20,042 nt of DNA from a virus, in the IMG/VR virus record IMGVR_UViG_3300042462_000096, positions 1 through 20,042 of that record. The stretch is one strand, 5' to 3'. Each line of letters opens with the position of its first letter. The first letter of the stretch is position 1. The notes beneath the pieces were generated by a model that was given only the letters and a program-made list of their open reading frames with translations, made no database searches and was not told the origin of the DNA. Positions 2,549 through 18,108 of the stretch are shown here, piece after piece. Made by a program: the position numbers and the translations under genes.

Positions 2549-2833
2549 TTATTGCTCCGTTGTTAATCTTTGCCAAGTGTTTGCCCAGTCTATCTTAGAC
2601 TTATGCTTGGAGAACTCTTTAGATATCTGTCCACTTTCAAGGTAGACTCCACCCCAGATTCCCCACTCTTTTTGAGAAACACCAACGGCAAAACACATCT
2701 TAGACACTGGGCACATAGAACAAAGTTTGTCTACTGCTGGTCTTAGAAGTTCATCATCTTCATACTTTTCAAAGAATATATTTGTGTCGTAATCTAAACA
2801 CAAAGCATCATCTTTCCATTCATGCTTTGGCAT
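2549..2833 (-). CDS. WhiB-family iron-sulfur transcription factor
   Basis: WhiB-like proteins carry a [4Fe-4S] cluster and bind the principal sigma factor to change promoter choice. They occur only in Actinobacteria and their phages, so this gene is the best host indicator here. The four cluster cysteines are present in the usual spacing: C12, then C38-x2-C41-x5-C47. The family's G[IV]WGG turn follows at 58-62. A short basic C-terminal region (KHKSKID) could contact DNA. The length of 94 aa is typical. Mycobacteriophage WhiB proteins (for example TM4 WhiBTM4) are known to interfere with host WhiB2. Whether this one represses the host or activates phage genes cannot be told. Confidence 0.95.
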   Translation of the reverse strand: MPKHEWKDDALCLDYDTNIFFEKYEDDELLRPAVDKLCSMCPVSKMCFAVGVSQKEWGIWGGVYLESGQISKEFSKHKSKIDWANTWQRLTTEQ

Positions 2834-4152: not shown

Positions 4153-4366
4153 TGATTCTCCAATTCATTGTAGAAGGACCCTTCTTAATTAGTTTAAACA
4201 TGTGGTCCTCATACTGCTCTTTAAGTTCTGCATATAAATCTGGATGGACCTGCTGCAACTTATCAGTAATGCTATAAAGAACATTGCCTTCATAGTCAAT
4301 ATCAGCCATCTGAATTGCTCCCTGGTTTAATAGATGATTCAAGAGTTCTTGCTTCTTGATGTCCAT
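4145..4366 (-). CDS. 73-aa hypothetical protein, tandem paralogue B
   Basis: The shorter member of a tandem pair with the 110-aa protein at 3820-4152. The shared block runs from about residue 7 to 47, with DIDYEGNVLYSITDKLQQ as its core. The C-terminal part differs and ends in a basic stretch (KKGPSTMNWRINV), about 40 residues shorter than its partner. The ATG shares one base with the stop of the nuclease gene (TAATG), so translation is probably coupled. No function can be assigned. Confidence 0.76.
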   Translation of the reverse strand: MDIKKQELLNHLLNQGAIQMADIDYEGNVLYSITDKLQQVHPDLYAELKEQYEDHMFKLIKKGPSTMNWRINV

Positions 4367-4773
4367 TACTTACCTGACTTTGATCTGGCCTTCTTCAAAG
4401 CATCAAAATCTTTGACCTTTGTGTCTCCCATATATCCCCAGGCATAGCCATCATTAATCATCTTATCATTGAGAGATTCTGTATCTCCATTTACATAGAC
4501 CCAACCAAGAATACGACCATACTTTTCAGATGAGTCCATCTTTTCAGTCTTAATTACAACAGACTTAGCATCCTTAAGATGCTTCTTTAGGTATTCCTTA
4601 GACTCAAGACCAAGAGCCTTTTCAGCAAGATCCTTTGTACGAGACTCAGGGGTATCAATACCAGCCAGTCTCACACGGGATTGAAACAAAATATCAAACC
4701 CTAAATCAATTAGAACGTCGATAGTATCTCCATCTACTACGTTCTCTACTTTTCTTACATAGTATTCATACAT
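4366..4773 (-). CDS. Staphylococcal-nuclease-like (thermonuclease) protein
   Basis: This 135-aa protein matches the SNase fold, a calcium-dependent phosphodiesterase that cuts DNA and RNA. Visible motifs are VVDGDTI (12-18), R35, the GIDTPE block with D40, T41 and E43, and EKYGRILG with R87. These match the residues needed for calcium binding and catalysis in the staphylococcal enzyme, so it is probably active. There is no signal peptide, so it would work inside the cell, where host DNA breakdown or phage DNA processing are possible roles. It starts 8 bases inside the sulfotransferase gene and its stop overlaps the next ATG. Confidence 0.92.
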   Translation of the reverse strand: MYEYYVRKVENVVDGDTIDVLIDLGFDILFQSRVRLAGIDTPESRTKDLAEKALGLESKEYLKKHLKDAKSVVIKTEKMDSSEKYGRILGWVYVNGDTESLNDKMINDGYAWGYMGDTKVKDFDALKKARSKSGK

Positions 4774-5575
4774 TTGTAGCCTCCTTGTTTTTTACAAAAT
4801 TATAAACCTGTAGGTCTATATTATTTAACTCTAACACTCTATCTTTTTCATCTTGAGTTAATAGATTTACGAAGTATCCAGAAGAAACAGGTTCTTCATT
4901 TAACTTAGACGGTCCAACATTAATCTTAGTATTAAAATCAAAATTAATGTCAATACTGTGGTTTAGCATAAACCAGTTCTTAATTTTACCACAAAAGGCC
5001 TCCATGTTTTCAACAGTATTCACTATCTCAAAACTATTTATGTTGTGAATTGCATTATCAATAGAGGTATTTTCATTTTTAACAAACCAATCAAACCCTT
5101 TGCCTTCATAAAAATGACTCATCATCTCTGATTTATGCTTTGTATAAAAGGACTCTGGATCCCAAGATCTTGGGTCTGAAGGATTACAAATAAACCTGCT
5201 TTGATAGTTGTTATGAATTAAAAAGTTCTTATCTTCAAACAAATAATATAAAAATCTTTCTCTATTGCTAGGTAGATCTTTGTATTCGTTTCTGTTATAT
5301 AGATATCTTGGGTATATAAAATTAAAATAACTCGCTCTTGCTGACAGGGGATCTCTAATCAAAGTTGCTACAGAAACATCTTCCAATAGTTCTATTGGGT
5401 AAGTACCTGCGTGGGCTGATATATAAATCTTTGATTTTAAGAATTCATTATTGTTTGGGAAAATGGTACTTGTATAGCACAATAGATCATTGCTAATACT
5501 TTTTTTTATGTTTTCTGAAACAAAACTTCCAGCAGTCTTTGGTATGTGAAGAAAATACAATTGCTTTAATGACAT
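4766..5575 (-). CDS. Sulfotransferase family protein
   Basis: The 269-aa protein has both hallmarks of PAPS-dependent sulfotransferases. The N-terminal FLHIPKTAGS (about residues 8-17) is the 5'-phosphosulfate loop. ATLIRDPLSARASYFNF is the 3'-phosphate-binding strand and helix. The HIPKTAG form is typical of carbohydrate sulfotransferases of the Sulfotransfer_2 type. An early His (SAHAG) could serve in catalysis. The length is normal. The acceptor cannot be deduced; glycans or a small molecule are both possible. The sequence is AT-rich like the halogenase next door. An APS-kinase domain that could help supply PAPS lies 2 kb upstream. The gene overlaps the nuclease gene by 8 bases. Confidence 0.87.
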   Translation of the reverse strand: MSLKQLYFLHIPKTAGSFVSENIKKSISNDLLCYTSTIFPNNNEFLKSKIYISAHAGTYPIELLEDVSVATLIRDPLSARASYFNFIYPRYLYNRNEYKDLPSNRERFLYYLFEDKNFLIHNNYQSRFICNPSDPRSWDPESFYTKHKSEMMSHFYEGKGFDWFVKNENTSIDNAIHNINSFEIVNTVENMEAFCGKIKNWFMLNHSIDINFDFNTKINVGPSKLNEEPVSSGYFVNLLTQDEKDRVLELNNIDLQVYNFVKNKEATNV

Positions 5576-5586
5576 TAATTGTCCCC

Positions 5587-5871
5587 TTAAACCCAGTACT
5601 TAATTATAGCACTTGTAGCAAGGATTGTCCACAGGATGTTAAACCAAATAATTGTAGGCAAAGTCTTAACTGTTGATGACCAGATCAATGCAAGGCTTGA
5701 TACTAGGGCAAATATGTATAGCCACCACCATTGCTTACCAAACAATAAGCCTGGAAATATAATAGATATCTTTGTCATGAAAGCAAAAAATTCAACAGTA
5801 TTAGGTCTATCCCAATATTTTTTATGTCTCATTGTCTTTAGGGCATTAATCCACTCTGTTCTAAATTTCAT
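5587..5871 (-). CDS. 94-aa membrane protein in the halogenase cassette
   Basis: After a polar, basic N-terminus of about 30 residues (MKFRTEWINALKTMRHKK) come two or three hydrophobic segments rich in Trp, at about 31-48, 50-66 and 72-90. The ATG overlaps the halogenase stop codon (ATGA), so it is translationally coupled to the halogenase, and the sulfotransferase begins 11 bases after its stop. That placement suggests it acts with them, for instance as a membrane dock or exporter component, but no family is recognised. Confidence 0.75.
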   Translation of the reverse strand: MKFRTEWINALKTMRHKKYWDRPNTVEFFAFMTKISIIFPGLLFGKQWWWLYIFALVSSLALIWSSTVKTLPTIIWFNILWTILATSAIIKYWV

Positions 5872-7391
5872 TTTAAATACTCCAAAAATTTATTATGATC
5901 CATACATCTATAACTTTGATCTTTTTGATAGTTAACAAAGTTCTCGTAGGCATTAAGACCTGCCTCATATTCTTCTGAGTTTTGAACATAAGTAGTTCCA
6001 AAAGTTTTATTAATTGTTTCCTGTGCAGATCCAATTAAAATCCAACTATTAACATCCCAATAATCTCCAGTATCTTGGTTATCTGGCATCCTGTTTTGCC
6101 ATAAATTTATTTTTTCTTTTAATTTTTCTGGAGCATTTTCATATGAGAATTTTTGCCAGAACTCAGTATCTTTTCTCATTGACAAATAATGAAAATACAA
6201 AAATTCAACAATATCATTATTCATAGAAACAATTTTTTTATTAAATTCATCCCTAACCGAAACTGAATTGTTTGTTATCCAGTTTGTATTTCCAAAAATA
6301 TGAATAAGTCCAACCATACTTACCCAGATAGATGTTGCCTCCAATGGTTCTACAAAGTTTCCTGCAAGACCTATGGCAACACAGTTATTTATCCATGTCT
6401 CTTCATATGATCCAGCACTAAACTTAAAGCCACCCTTATCTTTTCTTGGGTAGAATGGCTCATATCCTAAGAACTCTTCTATCTCTTTTGTTGCTTCTTT
6501 TTCTGATATTAAAGATGAATCATAAACATATCCACATCCAAACCTATTTTGTAATGGAATCTTCCACATCCATCCATACTTCATTGCAATAGCCTCTGTA
6601 TAAGGTGGTATCTCTTCTGTCATTTCAGTAAAAAATGGTACAGCAGAGTCACATGGCAATAGATCACTATAACTTTTCCATTTTGAATTAAAGACTTTAC
6701 CAATAATTAATCTATGAAAACCGCTACAGTCAAAAACAAAATCACACAGAATCTCTTCTTTGCTTTCCAGTATTAAACTTTTAATGTATTTTTCTTTATC
6801 TAAAGATACTTCTTCTACAATGCCATCTATTACTTTGATTCCACGTTCAATACCTATTTCTTTTAGTCTATTTGCAAGTTTTGTAGCATTAAAATGTATT
6901 GAGAATGCTCCAATATTTTCATAATCTTTTATTGGGTTACCACCCAAGGCTTTTTTAAATATAAAAGCAACTTTGTTTTGATCTGAAATTTTTTCTGAAA
7001 AATCAATTTCTTTTAAACTACTGTTTAAATGTAGGCTTGCTGCTTGAAGAGGGCTTGCTGATAAAAACCTAGTAGAAACTGCTTGTGGCCCTAGTTCTTG
7101 CTCTGTTGGAGGAAAGCCATGATAGTAATAATCATTATCATTATTCCAGTTAGTAAACTTTATTCCATTTTTTATTGTTGCATCACAATTTTTAACTAAG
7201 TCTGGAATAGTAATTTCTAAATGTCTAAAAAACTGAATAAATGTTGGCACAGATCCTTCTCCAGCACCCAATATCCCTATGTCTTCTGATTCAATTAAGA
7301 CTATGTTTAGTTTTGGGTATGACTTTTTAGCCATCAGTGCGGTAAGCCATCCAGCAGTTCCTCCACCAACAACAACTATATTCTTTGTCAT
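5868..7391 (-). CDS. Flavin-dependent tryptophan-halogenase-like protein
   Basis: This 507-aa protein matches the tryptophan halogenase family (PF04820), which uses FADH2, oxygen and halide to make hypohalous acid and halogenate an aromatic or other electron-rich substrate. From the chosen ATG, the FAD-binding GGGTAG is at 9-14, the catalytic lysine is K74 in DATIKNGIKF, DCSGFHR is at 221-227, and the halogenase signature WMWKIP is at 274-279. A GNFVEPLEATS stretch follows, carrying the active-site glutamate region. All key residues are intact and the length is normal. The ATG at 7391 overlaps the DUF2061 stop (TAATG) behind GGGGAAG; an in-frame ATG ten codons earlier is less likely. A cyanophage halogenase (VirX1) has been described. 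No flavin reductase is seen in the window. The gene is very AT-rich. Confidence 0.95.
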   Translation of the reverse strand: MTKNIVVVGGGTAGWLTALMAKKSYPKLNIVLIESEDIGILGAGEGSVPTFIQFFRHLEITIPDLVKNCDATIKNGIKFTNWNNDNDYYYHGFPPTEQELGPQAVSTRFLSASPLQAASLHLNSSLKEIDFSEKISDQNKVAFIFKKALGGNPIKDYENIGAFSIHFNATKLANRLKEIGIERGIKVIDGIVEEVSLDKEKYIKSLILESKEEILCDFVFDCSGFHRLIIGKVFNSKWKSYSDLLPCDSAVPFFTEMTEEIPPYTEAIAMKYGWMWKIPLQNRFGCGYVYDSSLISEKEATKEIEEFLGYEPFYPRKDKGGFKFSAGSYEETWINNCVAIGLAGNFVEPLEATSIWVSMVGLIHIFGNTNWITNNSVSVRDEFNKKIVSMNNDIVEFLYFHYLSMRKDTEFWQKFSYENAPEKLKEKINLWQNRMPDNQDTGDYWDVNSWILIGSAQETINKTFGTTYVQNSEEYEAGLNAYENFVNYQKDQSYRCMDHNKFLEYLK

Positions 7392-7594
7392 TACTTTCTT
7401 CCCCATTGTATATAGTTCCACCCACGCTCATGGAAGTAATAAAGGATTGTCTTTGTAACTACCTCGAAACTTGCAATTGCACCTGCTGTAACTGGCTCTT
7501 TGGTTATTACCCAAGATATAACAAATGTATCTGCTGTTCCAATTATACGCCATGTGATAGCCTTTAGTGCTGATCTTTGTTTGGATACATTCAT
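7391..7594 (-). CDS. DUF2061 membrane protein, copy 1
   Basis: A 67-aa protein of the DUF2061 family (PF09834), which are small two-helix membrane proteins of unknown function. The signature is clear: RSALKAITWRIIGTADTF near the start, and EVVTKTILYYFHERGWNYI near the end, with hydrophobic stretches between. I chose the ATG at 7594 because GGAG lies eight bases before it; an in-frame GTG three codons earlier is possible. It precedes the halogenase with a one-base overlap. A second DUF2061 gene lies at 8945-9163. Confidence 0.88.
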   Translation of the reverse strand: MNVSKQRSALKAITWRIIGTADTFVISWVITKEPVTAGAIASFEVVTKTILYYFHERGWNYIQWGRK

Positions 7595-7639
7595 GATGGC
7601 CACTCCATATTGTTAGGCTTAGTAATTAAAGTCCAGACT

Positions 7640-8398
7640 TTAGATACCCATCTCTTTACGTTTTTGCGTAGCCGATATAGCATGAATGTCTGCCCCCAAA
7701 TCTACTTGTTCAATCTTGTATCCCACATCACGACCATAAACAATGTTGGTAATGTTGGGTAGTCTTAGTACTAATGCGCCGTCCATAAATTCGTCCTTGG
7801 CAATATATTCTTTTACCTGATCAAACTTGAGAGGATCCTTTTCGCTTGTATTATAGGTATTACGGACTCCAAGAAGTACTTGGTCAGTTCTCTTGCCAGC
7901 CTCCCTGTAAAGGGCGTGGTGGCCCTCGTGCCAGGGCTGGTACCTACCCAGCATAAGAGTTGTAGGGGCTGTCCAGTCGTGTAACTGGCAAGCGGCAATG
8001 ATAAGGTCAGCCTCTTCTTCTACGGTCATCCCACAGGGGATTCTGACATCGCATGACTCTGGATCTTCCCACATCTTATTTGTATCTTCAAATCTTCCAA
8101 ACTCAATTCTGTCTACCCAAATTAAAATATCTGGCTTACCAAATGCTGCACGGGTTAGATCAGTTGGACATACAAAATCAACTACTACTGGAGCAACTCC
8201 TTGCTTAGCAATAAGCCTTGCCATGTCACCCATACGCCTTGCCTGTTCAATTCTATCTTCAGGACTAAAACCTAAGTCTGAATTTACTGTTGCACGAACC
8301 TCATCAGCATTAAGATGAATAGCGTTAATTCGTTCTTTTAGTGCCTTCGCTAGTTCTGTTTTGCCAGAACCTGGAAGACCAATAATCTGAATAATCAT
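7640..8398 (-). CDS. APS-kinase-like domain fused to a nucleotidyltransferase domain
   Basis: The 252-aa protein has two parts. Residues 1-140 resemble adenylylsulfate kinase (CysC): Walker A GLPGSGKT at 7-14, NADEVR at 30-35 in place of the usual DGDNVR, and DLGFSPEDRIEQARRMG at 41-57. APS kinase phosphorylates APS to PAPS, the sulfate donor of sulfotransferases. Residues 145-252 resemble a HxGH-type nucleotidyltransferase (NMN adenylyltransferase or cytidylyltransferase class). They carry GRYQPWHEGH at 151-160, GRDVGY at 222-227 and an ISATQKR motif at 241-247. ATP sulfurylase belongs to the same superfamily and is fused to APS kinase in animal PAPS synthetase, but this domain is much shorter. 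The true substrates are uncertain. It lies upstream of the halogenase and sulfotransferase. Confidence 0.85.
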   Translation of the reverse strand: MIIQIIGLPGSGKTELAKALKERINAIHLNADEVRATVNSDLGFSPEDRIEQARRMGDMARLIAKQGVAPVVVDFVCPTDLTRAAFGKPDILIWVDRIEFGRFEDTNKMWEDPESCDVRIPCGMTVEEEADLIIAACQLHDWTAPTTLMLGRYQPWHEGHHALYREAGKRTDQVLLGVRNTYNTSEKDPLKFDQVKEYIAKDEFMDGALVLRLPNITNIVYGRDVGYKIEQVDLGADIHAISATQKRKEMGI

Positions 8399-8837: not shown

Positions 8838-8945
8838 TTACTTCTTTTTCTTTTCCTTAACATACCAGACAGGTAGTTTTAATTCATCGCCAGACCACTC
8901 ATACCCAAGTGATTTGACGACAAACTTAATTATCTTAATACGCAT
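8838..8945 (-). CDS. 35-aa hypothetical protein
   Basis: A very small gene supported by its packing. Its ATG overlaps the stop of DUF2061 copy 2 (TAATG) and its stop lies two bases before the FmdB-like ATG. The product begins with a basic, hydrophobic helix (MRIKIIKFVVKSLGYEW), has a short acidic turn, and ends PVWYVKEKKKK. It may be an amphipathic, membrane-touching peptide or a nucleic-acid-binding one. No family is recognised. Confidence 0.6.
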   Translation of the reverse strand: MRIKIIKFVVKSLGYEWSGDELKLPVWYVKEKKKK

Positions 8946-9163
8946 TATTTTACCTTGTGTCCAAACTTTGCCCAGACTCTCTCATGTAGGTAATAGAATG
9001 TCATTTCTAACGCCATGTATGAAAGTGCATATAGTCCAACATACTCCCATTCAGCCTCACCATAAATTATATGGCTTGCTGCAAATAAAATTCCAGCAAC
9101 AAAAGTAAAATGTACAAATGGCCAACTGATTGTTTTTAGTAGTGATCTTTTTTTGGAATCCAT
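8945..9163 (-). CDS. DUF2061-like membrane protein, copy 2
   Basis: A 72-aa membrane protein related to the gene at 7391-7594. It begins KKRSLLKTISWPFVHF and ends MTFYYLHERVWAKFG, where the HERVW block is the DUF2061 end signature. The central part is hydrophobic (FTFVAGILFAASHIIYG and YVGLYALSYMALEM). It differs from copy 1 in having Pro where the family normally has Arg after the first Trp, so it is a divergent copy. It directly follows the endolysin with a one-base overlap and may be co-expressed with lysis functions. Confidence 0.82.
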   Translation of the reverse strand: MDSKKRSLLKTISWPFVHFTFVAGILFAASHIIYGEAEWEYVGLYALSYMALEMTFYYLHERVWAKFGHKVK

Positions 9164-10446: not shown

Positions 10447-10471
10447 ATCGTTTCCTTTCAATAGTGTTACG

Positions 10472-10544
10472 CTGCCCCACCTGGCCTCGATCCAGGGACA
10501 TCCGAATTAACAGTTCGGCACTCTACCAACTGAGTTATAGGGCA
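10472..10544 (-). tRNA. tRNA-Asn (anticodon GTT)
   Basis: The 73 bases fold into a full cloverleaf: acceptor TGCCCTA/TGGGGCA (one G-U pair), D arm ACTC/GAGT with loop AGTTGGTA, and anticodon arm CCGAA/TTCGG with loop CTGTTAA (anticodon GTT). A five-base variable loop and the T arm CCTGG/CCAGG complete it. The discriminator base is G and no CCA is encoded. The T loop is ATCGAGG, so base 54 is A instead of the near-universal T. It probably supplements a host tRNA during late expression. Confidence 0.93.
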
Positions 10545-10584: not shown

Positions 10585-11520
10585 TTACTTAGAACTAACA
10601 GCAACTACTCTTACTGCTTCAAATGTAGGAACTTTTTGCTTACCTACCATAGTAAAGTAGTCAACAAACTTAACTGATTCTTTTGTAAGAGAATTTAAAT
10701 ATTCTACAAAAGTTTTATAAGTATTGTTTTTAGTATACGCAGATGCAGAGATTGCTGCTGCTCCTGATGTTCCACCAAGGTTAAACTGTGCTCCATTTAC
10801 CTTAGTAATAGAGAGTCCTCCAACTGCTAACAGGTCAAGTCCTGGACCTCTATTAGTTTGTGTCTCTCCAATTCTAACACCAGCATCAACTTGTTCAGTT
10901 AGTGATCCAACACCAACTACTCCAGCAACACACGCTGGGAATCCAACAGAAGTTTTATTTGTATCGTTACCTGTCGCAGCAAATACTGGAACATTCTTAG
11001 AGTTAAGCAATGAAACCGCATTGATTGTGACATTGTCTGTTGTGCACCAAGTTGGAATATTTATACTAGATTGACTAATTGATAAGGCATCAATACTATA
11101 TTTTTCTGAGTTCTTTGATACCCAGTCGATTGATTTGCGTAAACTGTCAGCCCAGTTTGTGTACACAACCCTCTTGTTGGCAGTGTACTCTTCAGCATAT
11201 CTAATAAATACAATCTTAAGGTTTGGATTAATTGCCAAGGCAGCCTTTACCATAGCATCACCGTGATATGCAGACATATTGTTTGAGTCTGCTGGGGGAG
11301 TTGCTATTGCTGCTGCTCCCTTTCCTTCCATAAAATTTGTCTTGTTTGGACAGGAATTTTTGTATGTATTAAAGCATACCTCATGAATGATCTGAGGGAA
11401 CTTTCTTGAATCAATAGCAGTATCAATAATGGCTAGAACCTTTTGATCTTCTGCCTGTGCTGGCTGTACTACTGTAATTAATAGTACTGCTGATAGTAGT
11501 GCTAGTAGTGTTTTTTTCAT
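10585..11520 (-). CDS. Secreted subtilisin-like serine protease (S8)
   Basis: A 311-aa protease with an N-terminal signal peptide (MKKTLLALLSAVLL..., cleavage after AQA23). The S8 triad is visible: D33 in IIDTAID, H86 in YHGDAM and S252 in GGTSGAAA. The oxyanion asparagine is N185 in AATGND. Paired cysteines (C49/C57 and C159/C197) could form disulfides outside the cell. No propeptide domain is evident between the signal and the catalytic Asp, so it is a compact form. The ATG at 11520 is chosen for the signal peptide and a GAGAGA stretch before it; an in-frame start 25 codons earlier would overlap the preceding gene. It would act on cell-surface or external proteins. A phage-encoded exported subtilase is unusual. 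Confidence 0.9.
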   Translation of the reverse strand: MKKTLLALLSAVLLITVVQPAQAEDQKVLAIIDTAIDSRKFPQIIHEVCFNTYKNSCPNKTNFMEGKGAAAIATPPADSNNMSAYHGDAMVKAALAINPNLKIVFIRYAEEYTANKRVVYTNWADSLRKSIDWVSKNSEKYSIDALSISQSSINIPTWCTTDNVTINAVSLLNSKNVPVFAATGNDTNKTSVGFPACVAGVVGVGSLTEQVDAGVRIGETQTNRGPGLDLLAVGGLSITKVNGAQFNLGGTSGAAAISASAYTKNNTYKTFVEYLNSLTKESVKFVDYFTMVGKQKVPTFEAVRVVAVSSK

Positions 11521-11543
11521 TTTTGTCTCTCTCTTTGTTGTTG

Positions 11544-11762
11544 TTATTGTTTGATTTTTAAAACTACTTGGCAAGGGTCTCCGCCCTCTTCCCATTCTTT
11601 TTGCTCTTCTTCATCCATATATGGATCACCTTCGTGTGTATTGCAGAATGGTTCTGTTACCCATCCTCGTTCAATACCGTTTTCAAGCCAGATTTCAAAC
11701 TCGTCAAAATCTGATTCTATATTTTGGATATCTCTTAGGATCTCGTCAAATTCTTCGCTCAT
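11544..11762 (-). CDS. 72-aa acidic protein
   Basis: A strongly acidic small protein (MSEEFDEILRDIQN... and YMDEEEQKEWEEGGD). A central GWVTEPFCNTHEGDPYM motif and a closing GGDPCQVVLKI resemble small conserved actinophage proteins. Cysteine and histidine in CNTHEGD could bind metal. The opposite strand is also open here, but the composition and neighbours support this strand. It starts six bases after a TATACT box with no ribosome binding site, so its mRNA may be leaderless. The secreted protease follows 23 bases after its stop, so the two are likely co-transcribed. Confidence 0.75.
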   Translation of the reverse strand: MSEEFDEILRDIQNIESDFDEFEIWLENGIERGWVTEPFCNTHEGDPYMDEEEQKEWEEGGDPCQVVLKIKQ

Positions 11763-11777: not shown

Positions 11778-12302
11778 TTAAAGGCTTACGATGTCAACTG
11801 GACCCATACAGGATGGGTTAAATTTAATAGCAGCATTTACTGCCTGCATTACTCTGTTCCTTGCATTTTTCTGTTTATCTGTTGCATACAAAACACCATA
11901 GGCATATTCTGCACCAGAACCCATAGCAAGATAAGGAAGCATGTATTTAGATAAAGACATATCTCCAGAACTATGTTCATAGATTTCTCCACGGACTGCA
12001 ATAATCAAACCCAGGTCTCCATCTTTAGATGTGTCAACCCAGAACTCATTATAAAATTCTTTGAGTTCTTTAATAAATTTTGTCTGCATAAACTTGTCTG
12101 TGTCTTTAATGTTGGGTGGTGTTGGTTTAAAGTTATAACGGATTCTTTCTCCGTCCATTGATCCAGCATATCCAATTAGATATGGACCAATCTTCCAAAC
12201 CTTTGGAGCAGTAAGTGCTAAGATGGTTCCATCATCTGATGCCCCACGGTCTCCAGCCATGTAGATTTTATCTTCATGTTTTACTACAGCAATACAGGTC
12301 AT
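11778..12302 (-). CDS. Proteasome-beta/HslV-like Ntn hydrolase
   Basis: A 174-aa protein of the N-terminal-nucleophile hydrolase fold, resembling the HslV (ClpQ) peptidase and proteasome beta subunits. It begins MTCIAVV, so removal of Met exposes Thr1 with no propeptide. Counting from that Thr, D17 (GDRGAS), K33 (APKVWK) and G46-S47 (YAGSMDG) match the core proteasome active site, and AMGSGAEYA supplies the later Ser/Gly loop. HslV needs the HslU ATPase, and the actinobacterial proteasome uses Mpa/ARC; no ATPase gene lies in this window. It could use a host partner, process capsid proteins or act alone. It is the first gene after an extended -10 promoter and an inverted repeat overlapping its ribosome binding site. 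Confidence 0.85.
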   Translation of the reverse strand: MTCIAVVKHEDKIYMAGDRGASDDGTILALTAPKVWKIGPYLIGYAGSMDGERIRYNFKPTPPNIKDTDKFMQTKFIKELKEFYNEFWVDTSKDGDLGLIIAVRGEIYEHSSGDMSLSKYMLPYLAMGSGAEYAYGVLYATDKQKNARNRVMQAVNAAIKFNPSCMGPVDIVSL

Positions 12303-16326: not shown

Positions 16327-18108
16327 TTATAGTAGATTGAATCTATCCAGATAATCTTTTACATCATCTGGCATAGGTTTATAGTGTATCACATTATCTC
16401 TACCCATGTCAACCTGCTTAGGTCGATCACTAATAGTATGAACTTCAATGACCTGATTTTGGTCTTTTGGGGTATGTGATATTGCCCCAAATATTGCCCC
16501 ACACACAGCATCAGCCAAGTCCTTTGACTTTTTGCGGGGGTGGTCAACTCTATCATTTTTCATTATCTTTAACTGGGTTAGTTCATCAAACAGAAGTTCG
16601 ATAGATGGCATTGCAAGTCTTTCCTCATAAACAAGCATAGCCATATCTTCATAATGTTTCTTAGCAACAGAAACAGTATCAGTTCTCATACCAACCTGCT
16701 TCAATTCATTTTGTATATCAAATGATTGCCAACGGTCAAATGAAACCATCCCAATATTGAATCCAAGTCTTCTCAGATTCTGAATCCACTGTTTAACTTC
16801 TGAAAGATTAACTGGGCCCTCTACTTTTGGCTCCCACCAAGCAACAGCATCTACAACTACAATTGGTGCAACTTGCTCATAGTTATTAATTACCTGAATG
16901 TTTACCCACTTATCTACGTGAGCAATTGCTACAGCACACTTGTCGTGCTTTTGTGCAAGGTCAGCATGTACATAATAAACCTTATCTGGGTCAGGCTTAA
17001 AGGCTTCATCGAACCTTCTAAAATTATCTACAGGGTTACGAAGAGTCATACAGTTTCTAACTTTATCTACTTGCTTAAAGAATGCATCAGAAGCAAAGGT
17101 TGGTACACAGGCAAAGCGTTGCATAGCATCACCCAGGTCAGTCATAAAAGCAATCTTAAAATCATCAATATTTCTTGTTGGGTTTACTTCCCATGTTGGT
17201 CTTTTTAGTGCAAACACTCCTGGGTATTTATATGAAATGATTTGATCTTCGTCCCACGAAATTTGAAACTTATTGCTTGGGTCTGTGTCTGGCAGTAATG
17301 GATTAATTATAAACTCATGGGTTCTTTCAATAACTTCTTTTTCAGCAATAACTGCATCATACTTTTCTGAAATAAAGTCGCCTGGATATCTTGGGAATGA
17401 AAGTAAAACAACTTTGCCAAGGTCAGGAAAGCGGGAGTCTACTGATCCACGGAATGCTTTGTAAATGTTGTCAGCAGTCTTTCCCTGCTCGTTACCAGTT
17501 CCAACCTCAGATGCAAAACCAGAAATCTCATCAAGCACTGCAAGAAGAAGGTTCAAACCCTCATGCGATTCTCTTTCTGAGTGTCCAGAGTAAACAGTAA
17601 TTGATTTATTAAACTCAACTGAGTCAGCCTTTGCATAATACTTGCCAATGAACCAAGGAGACCTTTCGATCTTAGACTTAAAACCTTTAAAGAAAACATT
17701 CTTTGCTTGTTGTGCGTTAATAGCAACGTTGATTAGGTCAATAGCATCTCCAGAGGGCTTACCAAAATACTTTGCTGGGTCCTTTAAACATAGCAGTTTA
17801 TATACGATGTATGAGCATGCTACGGTTGATGTGAAGTCTTTTCCAGATCCCTTGCCCAGTTGCAGGATGATTTCATTCTTTGTGTACTTGTTGTAGTATT
17901 GAGTTCCTTTTTCTTCCCCCAGCAAATTTATAAGATCTTCTTTACGATAGATCTGGCTCATGGCTTCTACAATGTCGTACTGAATATCAGACAGGGGTGG
18001 CTGTCCAAGGTACTCTTCACCTTCAACAAATGTTCTTGCATCTACAGGAATCTCTTCAAAGTGATCAGACTTTAGTGCTTCAAGGAACTCATTGAACATC
18101 GTGGACAA
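16327..18108 (-). CDS. terL: Terminase large subunit
   Basis: The 593-aa DNA-packaging motor has an N-terminal ATPase and a C-terminal nuclease. Walker A is GKGSGKD at 85-91 and Walker B is LLAVLDEI with the acidic pair D193-E194; a GHSERESHEG stretch lies just before it. The RNase-H-like nuclease shows the acidic residues in YYVHADLAQ, VSFDRWQS and KSKDLADAV. The length is normal. The start is either TTG at 18108, which has GAGGTG seven bases upstream, or ATG at 18099, which has none; I keep the TTG. It overlaps the end of terS by 20 bases. The order TerS, TerL, then a surface protein instead of a portal gene is unusual and implies that the portal and capsid genes lie elsewhere. Confidence 0.96.
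   Translation of the reverse strand: MSTMFNEFLEALKSDHFEEIPVDARTFVEGEEYLGQPPLSDIQYDIVEAMSQIYRKEDLINLLGEEKGTQYYNKYTKNEIILQLGKGSGKDFTSTVACSYIVYKLLCLKDPAKYFGKPSGDAIDLINVAINAQQAKNVFFKGFKSKIERSPWFIGKYYAKADSVEFNKSITVYSGHSERESHEGLNLLLAVLDEISGFASEVGTGNEQGKTADNIYKAFRGSVDSRFPDLGKVVLLSFPRYPGDFISEKYDAVIAEKEVIERTHEFIINPLLPDTDPSNKFQISWDEDQIISYKYPGVFALKRPTWEVNPTRNIDDFKIAFMTDLGDAMQRFACVPTFASDAFFKQVDKVRNCMTLRNPVDNFRRFDEAFKPDPDKVYYVHADLAQKHDKCAVAIAHVDKWVNIQVINNYEQVAPIVVVDAVAWWEPKVEGPVNLSEVKQWIQNLRRLGFNIGMVSFDRWQSFDIQNELKQVGMRTDTVSVAKKHYEDMAMLVYEERLAMPSIELLFDELTQLKIMKNDRVDHPRKKSKDLADAVCGAIFGAISHTPKDQNQVIEVHTISDRPKQVDMGRDNVIHYKPMPDDVKDYLDRFNLL

Follow-up and report, generated by a model that had tools for sequence, protein, structure and literature searches.

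A probably functional flavin-dependent halogenase overlapping a small membrane protein gene in an actinophage

A 20,042-base stretch of DNA from one IMG/VR virus record, hereafter called the window, was found to carry on its minus strand (5868..7391) a gene for a flavin-dependent halogenase of the PF04820 family. Taking the sequence and a structure model together, we estimate at roughly 0.8 the probability that this is an accessory gene of a phage of (probably freshwater) Actinobacteria and that its product works as a FADH2-dependent halogenase of the two-component type. Enzymes of this class add chlorine, bromine or iodine to aromatic compounds. They are already known in phages, and the window enzyme would be a good further example, apparently functional, in an actinophage. 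New here is the translational coupling of the halogenase to a 94-aa membrane protein, TM94, which was shown by overlapping frames in essentially all relatives. This coupling, together with the exchange of one halogenase lineage for another at a single site, is the part most worth following.

The halogenase frame runs from an ATG at 7391 to a stop codon at 5868-5870 and encodes 507 aa. An in-frame GTG (7421) and an in-frame ATG (7406) lie upstream; the start in relatives is the ATG at 7391, and this same ATG is part of a TAATG that joins the frame to the upstream gene. The PF04820 profile matched the protein at 363.9 bits (E 1.6e-108, the curated cut-off being 21 bits) from profile position 1 to 447 of 458, and PHROG 2928, 'tryptophan halogenase', matched it with E 5e-104; at the sequence level, a chance match to either family is excluded. 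The motifs, in protein numbering, are GGGTAG at 9-14 (GxGxxG type), K74, WMWKIP at 274-279 (WxWxIP, with W274 and W276) and a block F346-V-E348-P-L-E351-A-T-S354, in which the catalytic pair K74 and E351 corresponds to K75 and E354 of PyrH. The first-pass annotation had described a complete halogenase of normal length with GGGTAG, K74, WMWKIP and EPLEATS intact, and the near-full profile match and the motif alignment confirmed it.

The structure model of the halogenase (mean pLDDT 92.5) matched PyrH with Z 43.9 and an rmsd of 2.0 over 479 residues, followed by Xcc4156 (Z 43.5), BrvH (Z 41.0), MibH (Z 39.8) and VirX1 (Z 37.7). Whole-length Foldseek/VIA matches were PyrH, Xcc4156, Thal, RebH, PrnA and VirX1. 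Model and alignment showed a complete PrnA/PyrH-type fold and catalytic set, although sharing a fold is no proof of activity. Compared with PyrH, the window protein keeps E45, K74, H91, F93, W274, W276, I278, P279, F346 and E351, each of them invariant in 26/26 sampled members of its clade, and the stacking F451 of PyrH is W445 in the window (W in 24/26). In contrast, Q160, Q163 and Y454 of PyrH, which we take to contact the amino acid moiety of tryptophan, are P153, N159 and N448 in the window and are variable within the clade. Because these anchoring residues are not kept, free tryptophan is unlikely as a substrate, and we infer that the substrate is aromatic. The earlier label of 'tryptophan-halogenase-type' enzyme was thus apt for the PF04820 family but not in the sense of substrate.

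What this aromatic substrate might be can be framed in two ways. With a little less than an even chance, the target is a metabolite or signal of the host (indole, phenol, pyrrole, quinone or a pigment precursor), whose modification would change competitors or the physiology of the host; the same has been proposed for cyanophage halogenases as auxiliary metabolic genes. Indeed, BrvH, an open-site enzyme that shares the S of the halide motif, halogenates indole (PMC7336383), VirX1 accepts a broad set of substrates (PMC8407142), and the window gene is accessory, being found in 3/16 contigs of its terminase lineage; yet biosynthetic partner genes are absent alongside, and no target metabolite is known in these hosts. 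We consider it rather unlikely that the enzyme acts on a polypeptide, halogenating its aromatic side chains while TM94 keeps the enzyme at the membrane; the target could be a protein of the virion or tail, or one of the host surface or envelope. Halogenated Trp/Tyr or masked surface features would then alter adsorption or superinfection. Such a role would suit the kinship in fold with MibH, a lanthipeptide Trp-5-halogenase and a known case of a protein-bound substrate, the lack of anchors for the amino and carboxylate groups of tryptophan, the conserved membrane neighbours DUF2061 and TM94, and, anecdotally, the fact that other phage halogenases have tail-fibre assembly or 2OG oxygenase genes as neighbours. 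However, the window gene adjoins lysis-type and metabolic genes, not tail genes, and no substrate motif was identified.

One part of the active site departs from the canonical form. The strap motif reads FVEPLEATS in the window, versus FVEPLESTG in tryptophan halogenases and VirX1, so that in the tunnel motif Fx.Px.Sx.G the F and P are kept, S is replaced by A (A352) and G by S (S354). The last position is G in most known enzymes, while S is found in BrvH and in two X. campestris halogenases that have been characterised (PMC7336383). Judged from sequence, A352 and S354 would count against a working halogenase, though BrvH is active with S in the place of G. A possibility was that the protein, its fold unchanged, is no longer a halogenase and serves as a flavin monooxygenase or oxidase. 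Besides these two replacements, the lack of a reductase gene and the existence of a phage copy with lost motif residues (that of DSL-LC01, see below) are in line with it. We regard it as quite improbable: K74, E351 and WxWxIP, the last of which is believed to prevent monooxygenation, do not vary within the clade, and enzymes of the BrvH type halogenate with S in place of this G.

A two-component halogenase needs FADH2 from elsewhere, and the first-pass annotation had noted that no flavin reductase was visible. This was also our finding for the window, and the 507-aa protein contains no reductase domain. Moreover, PF01613 was not found in 16 related records and PF03358 not in 13, mostly long contigs (fragments), whereas both profiles matched in 13/14 control genomes, Corynebacterium glutamicum included. 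Since these families are missing from the phage records and present in the controls, supply of the reductase by the host is plausible. On established family chemistry, FADH2 delivered by a host flavin reductase would react with O2 to give the C4a-hydroperoxide; halide would be oxidised to hypohalous acid, which would pass through the tunnel to K74; and K74 with E351 would then halogenate an electron-rich aromatic compound held between H91, F93 and W445. As a guess from linkage, the most likely role of TM94 during infection would be to bring the enzyme, or what it makes, to the membrane.

The host assignment rests on two other genes of the minus strand. A WhiB-family regulator, a marker of actinobacterial hosts, is encoded at 2549..2833 (PF02467 profile match, E 1e-10), and WhiB is common to 64/80 halogenase-bearing IMG/VR relatives. 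The terminase large subunit (16327..18108) is 55% identical over its full length to those of Streptomyces phages of the Stanwilliamsviridae. By the sequence of these two genes, the contig is that of an actinophage. Its host is probably a freshwater (lake-type) actinobacterium, the freshwater part being the one that we infer. The window also carries a tRNA-Asn (gtt) at 10471..10544 on the minus strand, and its phage late region encodes HslV/proteasome-like (11778-12302) and subtilase/mycosin-like (10585-11595) proteins.

IMG/VR holds at least 169 relatives of the halogenase, and the counts given here rest on 80 of them. A full-length frame from a start codon was present in 74/80; five others were cut at a contig end or had no plausible N-terminal start, and a single one (L031) was broken, with a stop after 44 codons. 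Pairwise dN/dS values between the window halogenase and nine relatives were 0.13-0.22 (around 0.18), indicating that the gene is under purifying selection. The open frames in relatives and the dN/dS values rule out a pseudogene.

We placed the enzyme in a careful tree of 47 rows; DSL-LC01 was omitted for its very long branch in a first tree, and RebH and PrnA figure in the structure comparison only. The window halogenase fell in a phage-only clade of IMG/VR phages and the Pelagibacter phage HTVC008M (support 100/98.6). An actinobacterial clade with PyrH, SttH, Tar14 (6nsd) and AbeH (100/97) excluded the window, and the window clade (100/98) excluded those enzymes. VirX1, which is CPUG_00131 of Syn10 by identity to PDB 6qgm, lay in a separate clade (100/100) near actinobacterial tryptophan halogenases; this clade includes two IMG/VR contigs, L305 and L314. 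A single clade of window and VirX1 enzymes was rejected (p-AU 0.0008), as was a single clade of all sampled phage halogenases (p-AU 0.0005), both values being optimistic since the groups were named after seeing the first tree. Kinship of the window enzyme with VirX1 is ruled out by the tree and the AU test, and the window enzyme does not extend the VirX1 lineage. Placement among non-halogenating monooxygenases, also considered in the first-pass annotation, was not observed in this PF04820 tree with VirX1 and actinobacterial enzymes. Recent uptake from a host actinobacterium is not favoured, as the nearest bacterial sequences among the matches listed were proteobacterial (37%, Tabrizicola), not actinobacterial. 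Incidentally, the halogenase of MT837902 (L087), a faecal 'bacteriophage', was near-identical to the Sphingomonas yabuuchiae copy in the tree, and this record may be bacterial DNA.

About 60 records of cyanophages and pelagiphages are already known to carry halogenases, and one review counted such genes in 20/153 cyanophages (PMC10452541). The closest named relative of the window enzyme is the HTVC008M tryptophan halogenase (AGE60413), with 40% identity over 82%, the same clade and the same EPLEATSIW; it differs in that its gene lies between the terminase subunit genes without TM94, in a member of the Kyanoviridae with an alphaproteobacterial host. VirX1 of cyanophage Syn10 shares the PF04820 fold, the catalytic K and E, a phage genome and the lack of a reductase, but it is only 29% identical, belongs to a separate branch, has EPLESTG and a Y for H91, and is an iodide-preferring trimer of known activity. 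In the Syn10 record (L084, HQ634191) the VirX1 gene is annotated 'hypothetical protein' and an adjacent second halogenase 'tryptophan halogenase'. In the S-PM2 record NC_006820 (L088) the halogenase frame stops after 75 codons and is unannotated, while S-PM2 record LN828717 annotates the gene.

A 2023 paper (PMC10611076) described DSL-LC01, a putative actinophage assembled from a metagenome, and reported in it WhiB genes and a homologue of tryptophan 7-halogenase. Its ORF137 (Actinomycetia phage, OQ999401) resembles the window gene in its annotation as tryptophan halogenase and in its setting, a putative actinophage of fresh water that also has WhiB and whose host is predicted. However, it is 28% identical to the window protein and has S for W276, R for F346, D for E351 and A for G44, and no TM94 match for DSL-LC01 was found in the phage collection. 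Because several catalytic-motif residues are missing from its sequence, its halogenase activity is doubtful. The suggestion that an actinophage enzyme extends phage halogenases to a new host group therefore stands insofar as a complete, selected enzyme is present in an actinophage, but the window is not the first case beyond cyanophages, HTVC008M and DSL-LC01 having preceded it. Among bacterial enzymes, PyrH, SttH and AbeH of Streptomyces and relatives are the best PDB matches in structure and sequence, with the same catalytic set; they differ by their location in secondary-metabolite clusters, by keeping the tryptophan anchors Q160/Q163/Y454 and by EPLESTG. BrvH and Xcc4156, proteobacterial open-site halogenases, have the same fold, and BrvH shares the S at the last tunnel-motif position, but they are bacterial, lie in another clade, and most such relatives keep the S at the earlier position.

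From 4366 to 8398, the genes described here all lie on the minus strand. TM94 (5587..5871), with three predicted hydrophobic helices, starts within the halogenase stop (ATGA). On the other side, a DUF2061 small membrane protein gene (PF09834, 7391..7597) ends in the halogenase start (TAATG), and in 62/80 relatives no more than 5 kb separates DUF2061 from the halogenase; a second DUF2061 membrane protein is encoded at 8945-9163 in the window. Next come an adenylylsulfate-kinase-like (APS-kinase/apsK) and nucleotidyltransferase domain fusion (7640..8398), a conserved neighbour in most relatives, and, after TM94, a protein whose N-terminus, read by eye, is sulfotransferase-like (4766..5575; no family match, minority of relatives) and an SNase-type nuclease (4366..4773). 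The overlap of TM94 with the halogenase stop measures 4 bases in 74/80 relatives and 11 bases in 5/80, the remaining one being the broken L031. TM94 is more conserved than the halogenase; it had no match in Pfam, PHROG or the phage collection, and its structure model was poor (pLDDT 57). A literature search, light on subscription papers, returned no report of the window clade or of TM94.

Gain and loss of the two genes could be followed within the terminase lineage. In a 112-kb relative (L492), the order is apsK, DUF2061, SNase; the halogenase-TM94 pair is missing, the nuclease abuts DUF2061, and the SNase ATG replaces the halogenase ATG at the TAATG junction. Three of the 16 terminase-lineage contigs had both genes and 13 had neither; adjacent genes share a fragment, so that absence weighs heavily in the long contigs (112 and 99 kb) alone. 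This comparison of gene orders showed that the pair is gained or lost as a unit. In another contig (L207/L249, IMGVR 3300042197_000926; TM94 at L249:3501), an internal deletion left a 21-codon halogenase remnant between DUF2061 and TM94, both overlaps surviving, and the end of the contig holds part of a second PF04820 gene. Lastly, L305 and L314 have the same TM94, directly preceded in an overlapping frame by a VirX1-type halogenase with 31% identity to the window enzyme; L305 is another WhiB-bearing phage with a similar neighbourhood. Three related genes of about 240 aa surround the pair in L305 (4526-5242, 3786-4526 and 1248-1976).

The halogenase might nonetheless be a passive neighbour of TM94, the link reflecting stable gene order with neither gene aiding the other, and this we hold to be possible, at somewhat worse than even odds. 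Indeed, PF04820 was absent in 17/19 tested contigs with distant TM94 copies, all of them fragments of up to 39.5 kb, which weakens the idea of TM94 as a dedicated halogenase partner; and two contigs carry both genes far apart, one within 50.8 kb (L322) and the other at a distance of about 27 kb (L323). Conversely, joint presence and absence within the terminase lineage and the occurrence of two unrelated halogenase lineages before the same TM94, with overlapping frames, argue against mere neighbourhood. The strongest form of the coupling, namely a two-gene membrane-associated halogenation module (PF04820 and TM94) in actinophages, whose enzyme was swapped between two unrelated lineages while TM94 was retained and in which TM94 defines a new type of system at the host envelope, is at present a doubtful proposal.

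Collectively, these records form a set of several hundred natural variants of one phage lineage, among them close relatives free of the gene, a single case of internal deletion and exchanges of one halogenase type for another. The enzymes of the window clade are candidate biocatalysts distinct from VirX1. The conserved neighbour gene TM94 could lead to the substrate.
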